Below, in pieces: positions 2,930 to 48,890 of a DNA stretch of 64,000 nucleotides (the first letter of the stretch is position 1; each line of letters opens with the position of its first letter). The translations under genes and the position numbers were made by a program. Source of the stretch: Acidipropionibacterium thoenii DSM 20276 (lineage in GTDB: Bacteria > Actinomycetota > Actinomycetes > Propionibacteriales > Propionibacteriaceae); the NCBI RefSeq assembly GCF_000423445.1, contig NZ_AUHZ01000010.1, positions 1-64,000 on the forward strand, in the 5' to 3' direction. The notes below the pieces were generated by a model, which did no database searches, was not told the origin of the DNA, and saw nothing but the letters and a program-made list of their open reading frames with translations.

Positions 2930-4356
2930 CGCGACTCCTTGCTCAGCTCAGCGGCCCCATCGGTGCTCTGGTCGACGTCGATCTCCTGCTCCAGCTCCGC
3001 CCCGGGATCGTTCCCCGGAACCCTGACGACGCCTTGCTCGCCGGATCCCGCGCCGTCCTCGAGCCGTCGGTAGACCAGAACCGAGGCGCTGTCGGGGTCC
3101 AGCCACCTGGCGGCTGCCCGCGTCACCTCGTCGGCCCCCACCCGGGCGATCCGGTCCAGGTAGCTGTTGACCTGGTCCGCCGACCCCATGATCGTCTCGT
3201 AGTAGTTGATCGCGTCCGCCCGGTCGTCGGCGGTGGCCAGCTCCAGCAGCCAGTCGCGTTCGGCCTGGGCGTGGATCCGCGCCATCTCGGTGGCGGTCGG
3301 GCCCTCGGCGGCCAGCTTCCGCAGGGCATCCGAGATCTCCTCGATGACCCGGTCCTCGGAGGCCCCCGGCTTCAGTTGGGCGACCACCGCCCCGGCCGAT
3401 CGCCCCCTCGACAGCCCCAGGTCGTAGCCGGAGACCCCCTCGGTCAGTTCGAGATCGCGCACCAGACGACGGATCAGCCGGGAGGCCATCCCGGTCTGGA
3501 GCACCGACATGGCGTCCTCCAGGCTCAGCTCCTCCGGATCGGTGGCCGCCGGGGTGGGCCAGGTCATCGTGATCGTGGTGCGCGGCACGTCGCGCTCCAG
3601 CACCAGATGTGAGGAGGCCGGAATCCCGAGGTTCGACGGCCTCCGGTCGGTCGGCGGGAGGGGTCCCTCACCGGCCGGAACCGCCCCCAGATACCGGTCG
3701 GCCAGCATCAGCGCCTGATCGGCGTCCACGCATCCGGCGATCACCAGGCAGGCGTTGCCCGGCCGGTACCACTGGCGGTGGAAGGACACGACGTCGTCCA
3801 GGGATGCGGCGTCCAGGTCGGGAACCGACCCGATCGTGGTGTGGGCATAGGGGTGGGCGCCGGGCAGATCCGATGGCCCGAACTGCTGGCTGAGCAGCTG
3901 GGCGAGCATGTCGCCGTAGGGAACGTTGTCGTAGCGCTGACGCTTCTCCTCCTTGACCACCTCGCGCTGGATGTCCAGGTTCTCGGCAGTCACCGCCAGG
4001 TGGGCCAACCTCTCGGACTCCAGCCACAGAGCCAGGTCCAGGGCGCCGGCCGGGACCGTCTCGAAGAAGTTGGTGCGGTCGAAGCTGGTCGTGGCATTGG
4101 CGGTACCGCCCACCGACTCGACGGTGGCCAGGTGCTCGCCGGAGGCGATGCCGCTGGTCGTGCCGGAGAACATCAGGTGCTCGAAGAGGTGGGCGAAGCC
4201 GAAATGGCCCGCCGTCTCGTCGGCCGAGCCGACCCGGAACCAGATGTTGACCGCCACTGCCGGGCAGGTCATGTCGGAGTTGACGACCACCCGCATCCCA
4301 TTGTCGAGGGTCCTCGCTGTCAACGTGATGGGCGCGCTCTCCAGGTCTGCAGGCAT
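2926..4356 (-). CDS. M16-family zinc metallopeptidase, catalytic subunit
   Basis: This 476-residue peptidase carries the inverted zinc motif HLFEH (His56, Glu59, His60) and the downstream acidic zinc ligand region (ALWLESERL), as in M16B enzymes. There is no signal peptide, so it is probably cytoplasmic. The frame is open for 52 codons further upstream, but that stretch crosses a promoter. An ATG at 4354-4356 with a TACCCT box seven bases before it fits a leaderless start and the family's N-terminus (LDNGMRVVVN). It is followed by the inactive M16 homologue with a 4-bp overlap, giving a two-gene operon. Confidence 0.88.
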   Translation of the reverse strand: MPADLESAPITLTARTLDNGMRVVVNSDMTCPAVAVNIWFRVGSADETAGHFGFAHLFEHLMFSGTTSGIASGEHLATVESVGGTANATTSFDRTNFFETVPAGALDLALWLESERLAHLAVTAENLDIQREVVKEEKRQRYDNVPYGDMLAQLLSQQFGPSDLPGAHPYAHTTIGSVPDLDAASLDDVVSFHRQWYRPGNACLVIAGCVDADQALMLADRYLGAVPAGEGPLPPTDRRPSNLGIPASSHLVLERDVPRTTITMTWPTPAATDPEELSLEDAMSVLQTGMASRLIRRLVRDLELTEGVSGYDLGLSRGRSAGAVVAQLKPGASEDRVIEEISDALRKLAAEGPTATEMARIHAQAERDWLLELATADDRADAINYYETIMGSADQVNSYLDRIARVGADEVTRAAARWLDPDSASVLVYRRLEDGAGSGEQGVVRVPGNDPGAELEQEIDVDQSTDGAAELSKESR

Positions 4357-4369: not shown

Positions 4370-4498
4370 GCGGGTGGGCGCAGGACGGCGCTGGACTGTA
4401 CGGCGGGACTGTTCTGCGGAGCGGCCGGGTGACCCGCAGGGTGGGCTCCGGGGGTCGTCCGCGTCGTCCAGCTGGTGGGTCCAGCCTCCGCTCTTCCC

Positions 4499-4566
4499 AC
4501 GTTCGTCCTCAAATATGGCGTTCGTCCTGGAATTCCAGGACGAACGCCATATTTGAGGACGAACGT
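4499..4566. repeat. GAATTC-centred palindromic repeat, copy 1
   Basis: A perfect 68-bp palindrome centred on GAATTC at 4530-4535. Each arm holds two direct copies of CGTTCGTCCT separated by AAATATGG. The same design occurs at 38971 and 44010 with a different middle block. It lies between the divergent M16 and DUF5318 genes, about 95-140 bp from each start, so it is not a simple terminator. Nothing else is recognised in the rest of the 4357-4672 gap apart from the two leaderless promoters. Confidence 0.9.
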
Positions 4567-4659
4567 CGATGGGGAGGGGGCAAGGGGGCCGGAAGGTGGC
4601 CAGTGGAGGTGTTAAAGGGGGCCGGGGAAGCGTTTCGGGACGCCGTTCGCCGGGCGCCG

Positions 4660-19824: not shown

Positions 19825-21282
19825 GTGCGCTCTGGGAGCCTCCGGCGACTCGCCACATGGATGTGGGCCGAATTTCTGGGCCACCCGGTCAGCTGGCTGG
19901 CCGAGCTGGTGCTGGCGGTCCTCATCGTCACCTGCACCTTCGTCACCACTGAACGAGGGATGGCCGGGGATCGGCGCTACCCGATCATGCTGGGGCTGCT
20001 GATCGGCGCGGTCGTCGTCTGCCTGATGCTGTGGCTGCTGGACTGGTGGCTGCACCGGCTGCTGCCGGCGCCCGCCCAGCCCGGGGATCCGTCCCGCCCG
20101 GGGACGGGCAGCAGTCCCGATTCGGGCGGCGACCCGGTCGACTCGAGGAGCCGGATGGGTGGCGTCGGCTCCGACCGAGCCGCGCTGCGGGCCGCACTCA
20201 TCGTGGCCGTGCCCTTCCTCGCAATGCTGGTGTGGGCGGCGTGCACGATCGGCTGGCATGAGCACTATGTGCTGGCCGGACGGGTCGCCTCCAGGATGAC
20301 CCGCGTCGACGTGCCCACCCCGGCCCTGGTCGTGCCATTGGTCGAGGCGGCCCTGGCGCTGCTGACCGCCACCTTGCTGGTGCTGCTGATCGGGCGCCCC
20401 AGGTTGGCCGACGCACTGTGGCGCGCGTGTCTGGTGTTCGCCGTCGTCACACCCGTCGACCTGGTTCGAGAGTTCCTGTGGGAACCGAAGGTGGGATGGC
20501 GTCTGGCCACCCGATTCGGGGGCGCGGCGATCTATCACACGGCGCTCATCCTGGGGATCGGGATCGCCGCGGACGGGATCCGCCGGGGATTCCACAAGGT
20601 GCTGTCCTGGTTGATCGTGGCCAGTTGTGTCGTGGCCCTGGTCGTCAGCGGATCACGGGCCGGGTTCATCGACATCGGCCTGCTCTGTGTGGCGCTGCTG
20701 ATCTGGGGCCGGCCGGCCCGGATCGAGACGCGGTTCAGACACCTGCTGAAGGGAGTCATCGGCTTCCTGGTGGCCGCCGTGGCCGTGGTGTGGATGGGCC
20801 AGCTGCGCGGCGTCGGCCTGGTCGATCACGGCAGGACACAGACCTGGCAGGTGGCCTGGCAGAGCATCGCCGACAGCCCGGCCAGCATCCTGTTCGGCAA
20901 GGGCTACGGAGTGATGTGGCCGTGGTTCGCCACCGAGAGCGGCCAGGTGCCGGGGGCCTCGCACGCCCTGCGGGTCACCGGGTACGGGGTGAGCCTGCCG
21001 CATGCCCACAACACTGTGGTGCAGATCGGCGCTGAGCTGGGGCTGGTCGGCACCGTCCTGGCGCTGGCCAGTCTGGTGGCGGTGGTGGTCTACTGCCTGC
21101 ACGGTATCGGCGGAGTTCACGGTGCGATGAGCCTGGCCGTGCTGGTGACCTTCCCCGGCCTGGTGCTGGACACCTATCTGGTCAAGAACTTCCCCACCAG
21201 CCTGATGTGGTGGACGGTGGCGATATCGGTGGCCGTGCTGATGAGCCGGGAGGAGCCTCCCAGCCCTCCGCCCTCGAGTTGA
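19825..21282 (+). CDS. O-antigen ligase/polymerase-like membrane protein (copy 3 of 4)
   Basis: The 485-residue polytopic protein has a GTG start after GGAGGCAGTA. It contains VVSGSRAGFIDIG and a late external loop ending PHAHNTVVQIGAELGLVG, the hallmark of the Wzy_C family. A Pro/Ser/Gly-rich cytoplasmic loop of about 40 residues lies near residues 85-115. Its closing KNFPTSLMWW resembles KNYGASLWWW of copy 1, so copies 1 and 3 look more alike to each other than to copies 2 and 4. It stands alone between a terminator and a large inverted repeat. Confidence 0.75.
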   Translation: MRSGSLRRLATWMWAEFLGHPVSWLAELVLAVLIVTCTFVTTERGMAGDRRYPIMLGLLIGAVVVCLMLWLLDWWLHRLLPAPAQPGDPSRPGTGSSPDSGGDPVDSRSRMGGVGSDRAALRAALIVAVPFLAMLVWAACTIGWHEHYVLAGRVASRMTRVDVPTPALVVPLVEAALALLTATLLVLLIGRPRLADALWRACLVFAVVTPVDLVREFLWEPKVGWRLATRFGGAAIYHTALILGIGIAADGIRRGFHKVLSWLIVASCVVALVVSGSRAGFIDIGLLCVALLIWGRPARIETRFRHLLKGVIGFLVAAVAVVWMGQLRGVGLVDHGRTQTWQVAWQSIADSPASILFGKGYGVMWPWFATESGQVPGASHALRVTGYGVSLPHAHNTVVQIGAELGLVGTVLALASLVAVVVYCLHGIGGVHGAMSLAVLVTFPGLVLDTYLVKNFPTSLMWWTVAISVAVLMSREEPPSPPPSS

Positions 21283-21302
21283 TCCAGTGACTCCTGGTCC
21301 TT

Positions 21303-21378
21303 CCTCGCGTTGATCCAGTAACTCCTCGTTGATCCCGCTACATGAGGATCAACGAGGAGTTACTGGATCAACGCGAGG
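21303..21378. repeat. Inverted repeat with 33-bp perfect arms
   Basis: Arms 21303-21335 and 21346-21378 are exact complements around a 10-base loop CGCTACATGA. Each arm contains GTTGATCC twice. A third, imperfect copy of GTTGATCCAGTAACTCCT begins right at the stop codon of the preceding gene (21279-21296). It lies between two convergent genes and could terminate both, but the arms are AT-richer and more repetitive than the other terminators here. Confidence 0.85.
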
Positions 21379-38723: not shown

Positions 38724-38970
38724 CAAGACCTCCGGGGTGTTGCGGGCAGGATTCGACGACGCAAAGTGGTTGACACTACGCGCCTCAGATTAGTAGCTGA
38801 TGCTGTCAGAGTGCGATTTTTCACTTTTTGGCGGACGCCGGGAGTGCGGGCCCGGGTTCGGGGGTGTGGTGGTGGTTGGTGCGGGGGCCGATGTCGGGAG
38901 AACCGGCCCCTTCCCCCCACCGCAGCCGGGCCGAGAGCTTCGTCCTGTGGCCCCTTCTTCCCCCCTACCG

Positions 38971-39038
38971 ACGTTCGTCCTCGAATCCGACGTTCGTCCT
39001 GGAATTCCAGGACGAACGCCAGATCTGAGGACGAACGT
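38971..39038. repeat. GAATTC-centred palindromic repeat, copy 2
   Basis: The 68-bp unit has the same outer and inner blocks as copies 1 and 3. Its middle block is mismatched between the arms (GAATCCGA against AGATCTGG), so it is the decayed member. It lies just upstream of the Nudix gene, and its right end is 21 bp from that gene's -10 box. Confidence 0.88.
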
Positions 39039-39059
39039 GGATCGGGACGGCAGCTGGCC

Positions 39060-44009: not shown

Positions 44010-44083
44010 CCACGTTCGTCCTCAAAACCGACGTTCGTCCTGGAATTCCAGGACGAACGTCGGTTTTGAGGACGAACGTGGAA
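44010..44083. repeat. GAATTC-centred palindromic repeat, copy 3
   Basis: A perfect 74-bp palindrome centred on 44044-44049, with the same CGTTCGTCCT blocks as copy 1. Its middle block is AAAACCGA with exact complement TCGGTTTT on the other arm. It lies between the convergent WbuB-like and glycosylase genes. Confidence 0.9.
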
Positions 44084-48674: not shown

Positions 48675-48689
48675 GCCGACTTCTCACAA

Positions 48690-48733
48690 CGCCGAAGGGC
48701 CCCGGTGGATCGATCCACCGGGGCCCTTCGGCG
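48690..48733 (+). terminator. Palindromic terminator after trxA
   Basis: Bases 48690-48711 and 48712-48733 are exact complements (22 bp each, beginning CGCCGAAGGGCCCCGG), centred on GATCGATC with no loop bases between the arms. The position, 16 bp after the trxA stop, fits a terminator. Confidence 0.8.
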
Positions 48734-48890
48734 TGCTGCGGACCGGCCCCACGCCGTGGCGGCGTCCACCGGGCCGTGTCGTCCACCGGGGCCGTGGTGG
48801 CCGGCGGGCCTGCAGAGAGCTGCTCCCGGTGGGCACACCATCCCCGGTGAGGGGGAGCGGTCGGCGTCCTCGATTCGGGTTCTCAGGCGC

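Follow-up and report, generated by a model that had tools for sequence, protein, structure and literature searches.

Why does a short palindrome recur at dispersed sites of a bacterial genome with a middle block that varies between copies and yet pairs within a copy? The question arises from a 64,000-nucleotide stretch of Acidipropionibacterium thoenii DSM 20276 (contig NZ_AUHZ01000010.1, positions 1 to 64,000; hereafter the window), in which a first-pass annotation had picked out three such elements. All three proved real, with the extents given below, and a palindrome of a second type (type B) lies among them. Gap orientations were taken from simple codon-usage gene calling.

Palindromes of types A and B

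4497-4568, unstranded: type-A solo palindrome 1, in a divergent gap; middle block AAATATGG matched in both arms; half-sites 4500-4509 (+), 4519-4528 (+), 4537-4546 (-) and 4556-4565 (-)
21278-21295, + strand: degenerate half-arm GTTGATCCAGTGACTCCT, which matches the type-B arm at 17/18 positions and lies immediately upstream of the palindrome at 21303-21378
21303-21378, unstranded: type-B solo palindrome with 33-bp arms and a 10-nt loop; half-sites CGTTGATCC at 21308-21316 and 21327-21335, mirrored at 21346-21354 and 21365-21373
38969-39040, unstranded: type-A solo palindrome 2, in a divergent gap; chimeric, with left block CGAATCCGA and right block CAGATCTGG; half-sites 38972-38981 (+), 38991-39000 (+), 39009-39018 (-) and 39028-39037 (-)
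44010-44081, unstranded: type-A solo palindrome 3, in a convergent gap; block AAAACCGA matched in both arms; half-sites 44013-44022 (+), 44032-44041 (+), 44050-44059 (-) and 44069-44078 (-)

The type-A plan spans 72 bp and consists of CCACGTTCGTCCTC-block-CGTTCGTCCTGGAA followed by its own reverse complement, each window copy carrying four CGTTCGTCCT half-sites, two of them direct and 19 bp apart and then two inverted. Exact matches to CGTTCGTCCT in the window were only those of the three type-A palindromes; when up to one mismatch was allowed there were 16, three times as many as in shuffled sequence (5.2 +/- 2.0, with 0/100 shuffles reaching 16). Folded as RNA, palindrome 1 gave -62.8 kcal/mol (z = -16.5). 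As the annotation had described, copies 1 and 3 are perfect palindromes, variable block included, and copy 2 is imperfect. The loss of matching in copy 2 is not, however, simple decay: both of its blocks recur in perfect palindromes elsewhere in the genome (loci L049 and L051), which identifies this copy as a chimera of two types. The gaps named for copies 1 and 3 stand, whereas copy 2, previously assigned to a leading gap, lies in a divergent one. An Rfam search of the window returned tRNA only, with no curated-family match for the palindromes. Elsewhere in the window, 48689-48734 is a perfect palindrome with 23-bp arms (ACGCCGAAGGGCCCCGGTGGATCGATCC...) whose sequence is unrelated to types A and B, and the gap of genome G003 that is equivalent to that of copy 1 (L178) holds an inverted repeat, GGTGCGCTTTTCACTCGCGTAA ... 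TTACGCGAGTGAAAAGTGCACC, possibly another element.

Across the window's own genome (G000; 2.94 Mb in 45 contigs, 99.9% complete) there are 19 type-A copies, 18 of them complete and one (L052) without one outer arm. Their 28-bp core is nearly invariant and the middle block is of at least nine types. Among the 18 complete copies, 13 have 34-bp arms without a mismatch; the imperfect ones look like recombinants of known block types or like single changes between them. Mismatches between a copy's own arms totalled 9 over the 18 complete copies, a total that averaged 40 and never fell below 23 once the right arms had been shuffled among copies, and 10 base pairs had changed on both sides versus 4.5 after shuffling (0/500 reached 10). 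The covariation that the annotation had proposed is thus present, in a dispersed REP/MITE-like family that is genuine and extends well beyond three copies. Nearly all palindrome copies in this genome and in G145, a genome of another genus, are intergenic by the same simple gene calls, convergent gaps being over-represented. Neighbours of the solo copies are unrelated, ordinary genes, with none common to them, and imperfect tandem duplications of 20-40 bp occur in the DNA flanking several palindromes (L053, L055 and other G000 gaps).

Half-sites did not occur alone: all 37 genome-wide matches to CCACGTTCGTCCTC (<=1 mismatch) fell inside elements, on which ground paired DNA-uptake sequences acting as terminators were rejected. 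A scan of 84,980 species genomes with the type-A half found elsewhere only simple direct repeats. Phage and plasmid records searched with the palindrome gave no matches, and a phage or plasmid origin of the palindrome was rejected for this reason; matches to the half pattern in viral contigs were not palindromic, and no relative of the partner protein described below was found encoded there.

Type B follows the same plan as type A, with two 9-10-bp half-sites 19 bp apart and then the mirror image. It is present in G000 and in the congener G004, and its middle block shows paired changes (own-arm mismatches 3 versus 21 shuffled). The half-arm at 21278-21295 is possibly a relic of a second end. 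At L235 (G004), too, one lone type-B arm (near 3108-3145) stands about 50 bp beyond a full type-B palindrome (2998-3068). In 147 genomes of the same family, searching with a covariance model yielded a third, diverged family in G145, GTTCGCTCCCGAAAGGGACGTTCGCTCCCG plus its mirror, with about 35 copies, in which changes are again matched in both arms (own-arm mismatches 51 versus 76 shuffled). One G145 palindrome (L120, 1598-1668) falls within a short frame resembling L-rhamnose mutarotase, or at its 3' end, and extends that frame.

Genes bracketed by palindrome pairs

In each of the three families, a pair of palindromes was found to enclose a gene of one kind; this partner lies outside the window and becomes apparent only from full elements, in this genome and in relatives. 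On contig C4, an AbiEi/DUF559-like gene stands between two type-A copies that are 1.4 kb apart; it is split by a frameshift in the assembly and is the sole type-A gene found in G000. Type-B copies 1.2 kb apart in the same genome bracket an intact homologue of 317 aa (L211), and in G145 two diverged palindromes bracket a decayed one. Under one fixed criterion, matched palindromes stood on both flanks of 11/13 AbiEi/DUF559-like genes, the other two having no matched partner palindrome, versus 0/163 non-DUF559 genes; the two positives among the controls, L291 and L273, were themselves DUF559 genes. Ten of the 13 genes had been found by gene similarity alone, with the palindromes not consulted, and 8 of these 10 were bracketed. 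In each pair one palindrome precedes the gene and the other follows it, and the full elements contain a single gene between them. Matched palindromes also enclose distant homologues on two Arthrobacter plasmids and in a Collinsella record.

Among the homologues inspected in four congeners, nearly every gene carries a palindrome pair, with a sequence peculiar to that gene (for example CGAATGCAGGGAAACTTGGCGAATGCAGTGGAATTCC at L275 and ACGATGCTCGCGAAGTTCGACGATGCTCGCG at L277), and at L282 (ACGCAGCGCC[A/G]GAGTCTGAACGGAGCGCCA) the two ends differ by a paired change. By inspection, the 19-bp half-site repeat is found in the palindromes of 12/13 loci, the exception being L283, whose arms are shortened. 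Divergence of the motif correlated with that of the protein (Mantel r=0.44, p=0.003), and more strongly with that of its middle region (alignment residues 60-170; r=0.62, p=0.0007), in a test limited to ten elements, whose motifs were aligned by eye. Of the more distant DUF559 genes, those at L257/L291, L262, L267 and L273 are bracketed and those at about twenty other loci are not. The palindromes at these four places are without a clear 19-bp half-site repeat, and the association is in this respect broader than the core family.

The encoded product is roughly 310 aa long. Its N-terminal and middle portion is AbiEi-like, and its C-terminal portion is apparently related to DUF559/MTES_1575 (Vsr/PD-(D/E)XK-type nucleases); the core proteins share 51-56% identity with the type-B protein. 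Pfam scores of the core protein lie below the curated cut-offs (AbiEi_1, E=0.002; AbiEi_4/AbiEi_3_N, about 0.05-0.08; DUF559, 0.12), and the homologue L265 matches AbiEi_4 at 0.0019. Four relatives (L265, L293, L291 and L262) score above threshold for PF04480 or PF18741, core members scoring below. Two of them, L265 and L293, are full-length homologues that match the core profile at about 1e-25 and also exceed the PF04480 cut-off, and it is through these intermediates that the core protein is linked to DUF559. Invariant residues include D232, E243-x-D245-G246 and K268, an arrangement that would suit a PD-(D/E)XK-type site in a predicted nuclease. A PDB sequence search with the core protein gave no match.

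These pairs bear on a rival account of the solo copies, namely that they are hairpin terminators or stabilisers of mRNA 3' ends, multiplied by ordinary duplication, whose covariation reflects selection on an RNA stem. Convergent gaps, which make up about 12% of sampled gaps, hold 11/19 type-A copies in G000, the G145 copies in tandem gaps mostly follow the preceding gene's stop codon at a short distance (median about 22 bp), and folding is very stable, all as a terminator would have it. Against this, 3/19 type-A copies lie in divergent gaps, no U-tract follows the palindromes, the half-site sequence is invariant though pairing alone would suffice, and matched, gene-specific pairs around AbiEi/DUF559-like genes, with one end upstream, go unexplained. 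We therefore regard this account as unlikely, and agree with the annotation that termination alone is insufficient.

Differences between species and alternative readings

Several observations suggest mobility. The type-A gene locus L056 is a 1.7-kb stretch in G000, where the same neighbours are 17-236 bp apart in four congeners. Type A has 19 copies in G000 and a few relatives in G001 and G002, versus none in G003 and G004. An identical copy (72/72) of the L277 palindrome lies at another place in G004. In three gaps, one species has a full element and another a solo palindrome: L275 (G003) occupies the gap of the solo type-A palindrome L060 in G000, L276 (G002) that of the solo type-A palindrome L059, and L283 (G002) that of the window type-B palindrome at 21303, where G004 also has a type-B palindrome (L238). 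By rough estimate, about 0.1-0.4 such coincidences would be expected for random gaps. The palindrome types of occupant and solo copy differ in all three cases, and these shared gaps could reflect either preferred gaps that received insertions more than once or long-standing occupancy in which the types have turned over. One further gap is common to L280 (G004) and L281 (G003), with the gene in opposite orientations. At three assumed ends, whose boundaries are uncertain, there was no excess of matching 2-8 bp flanks of the kind that target-site duplication leaves. Exact empty sites were not found in the four congeners, whose intergenic DNA is too diverged to align at the insertion boundaries.

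Shared gaps could also arise if a homing endonuclease gene invaded an existing solo palindrome, its target, which thereby became duplicated on both sides. Homing endonucleases of the Vsr type (EDxHD) are known, the family being named in PMC6083498 and PMC3943268, and congener elements sit in G000 solo-palindrome gaps more often than the random estimate allows. Such an enzyme should, however, keep cutting the two intact palindromes of an occupied site, and the type difference between occupied and supposedly empty sites at every one of the three loci also speaks against it. We consider homing no more probable than the terminator account.

Regulation without mobility is less probable still. Here the palindromes would be operators, bound by the AbiEi-like protein to repress its own expression and that of a regulon, much as AbiEi-family antitoxins autoregulate by binding inverted repeats (PMC7319586), and one palindrome of each pair is indeed upstream of the gene. 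This reading is difficult to reconcile with the second palindrome downstream, with the position of most solo copies in convergent gaps or behind genes rather than at promoters, or with copy number and sites that vary between congeners.

Finally, movement by a Y1 (RAYT) transposase, as in REP/REPIN elements, shares the logic of conserved blocks, a compensatory spacer and a type-specific partner gene (PMC3116915), but it can be set aside almost entirely, as a Y1_Tnp (PF01797) profile search that detected its positive controls found no such gene in the 99.9% complete G000, and the partner that was found is a different, AbiEi/DUF559-like protein rather than the RAYT-like one that the annotation had suggested.

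A candidate mobile element

The reading that we favour is that the window palindromes are probably the end sequences of a mobile element built as palindrome-gene-palindrome, in copies that lack the gene ('solo', presumably non-autonomous). Its basis, namely the copies, their covariation, the matched pairs around genes and presence or absence between species, can be read directly in the genomes, whereas binding, cleavage and transposition are inferred from it. Solo copies may have originated by mobilisation in trans or by recombination between the two ends of an element. 'Protein-binding site' and 'mobile element', both put forward by the annotation, may hold for the same palindrome.

The complete element would be a single gene between two palindromes, about 1.2-1.7 kb in all, each lineage having its own palindrome, almost always of two half-sites 19 bp apart and their mirror image. 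Because the half-sites are fixed, recognition by a protein is suggested, and four of them would be a natural target for the AbiEi-like part, since the sites bound by AbiEi-family antitoxins, which autoregulate in this way, are two pairs of 23-bp inverted repeats (PMC7319586). The nuclease-like part may then nick or cut at the palindrome, possibly extruded as a hairpin or cruciform, and repair or re-insertion would carry the palindrome to new intergenic sites, either together with the gene or alone; gene-less palindromes would spread in trans or be left behind. On this model the half-sites stay constant because the protein reads them. As the middle block is free yet self-complementary, either a folded (hairpin or cruciform) state or the copying of one arm from the other is implied: the block need only pair, and its symmetry could be kept by hairpin-templated arm copying during repair or by selection on the stem.

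Among known systems, REPIN/RAYT elements of Pseudomonas fluorescens and others are closest in logic, with dispersed extragenic inverted repeats, conserved blocks, a compensatory pairing spacer, several types per genome that each adjoin their own single-copy partner gene, and solo copies that far outnumber that gene (PMC3116915). They differ in that the partner here is AbiEi/DUF559-like and not a Y1 HUH transposase, and that a complete palindrome with four half-sites 19 bp apart stands on each side of the gene. Since the Y1 transposase is absent, the defining feature of REPIN/RAYT systems is missing. Nor was an unpaired GTAG or CGTC seen at the hairpin foot of the type-A copies inspected, whose arms pair to their outer ends with nothing conserved beyond CCACG. 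The AbiE type IV toxin-antitoxin system (AbiEi, Rv2827c; PMC7319586) resembles the element in its AbiEi-like region and in having members that bind multiple inverted repeats near their own gene, and differs from it in that here the C-terminal part resembles DUF559/Vsr-type nucleases, no second gene lies between the palindromes and the sites are dispersed genome-wide. MITEs and palindromic selfish repeats, including organellar double-hairpin elements, are likewise short, intergenic, non-autonomous inverted-repeat units, and the type-A and type-B pairs around AbiEi/DUF559-like genes parallel the gene-bearing relative with the same ends that MITEs have among DNA transposons; here, however, no target duplication was seen, and the gene-bearing form ends in complete palindromes rather than single inverted ends. 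Vsr-like (EDxHD) homing endonucleases appear, by sequence, to share the nuclease superfamily, and demonstrate that it can drive mobility of its own gene. Unlike these enzymes, the protein described here is not in introns or inteins, is joined to an AbiEi-like part and is bracketed by palindromes.

Whether Actinomycetota harbour a mobile element of an undescribed class, whose AbiEi-like plus Vsr/DUF559-type protein moves itself and gene-less palindromes by recognising a four-half-site palindrome that co-evolves with it and owes its symmetry to hairpin-templated copying, is to us an even call. Its novelty would lie in a partner protein apparently unrelated to the tested transposase families and in the association, not in proven transposition. 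A literature search that covered little of the subscription literature found no papers linking DUF559 or AbiEi with dispersed palindromes or mobility.

If mobility were disproved, the finding would become a new REP-like repeat family with an associated regulator. The AbiEi/DUF559-like protein family recurs in actinobacteria, mostly labelled hypothetical. The three families, with many independent paired changes inside fixed half-sites, offer a natural test of how palindrome symmetry is maintained. If the proposal is true, these genomes would give biochemists proteins matched to their sites in a wide range of sequences, and would represent a second, independently evolved route to palindrome-filled bacterial genomes.
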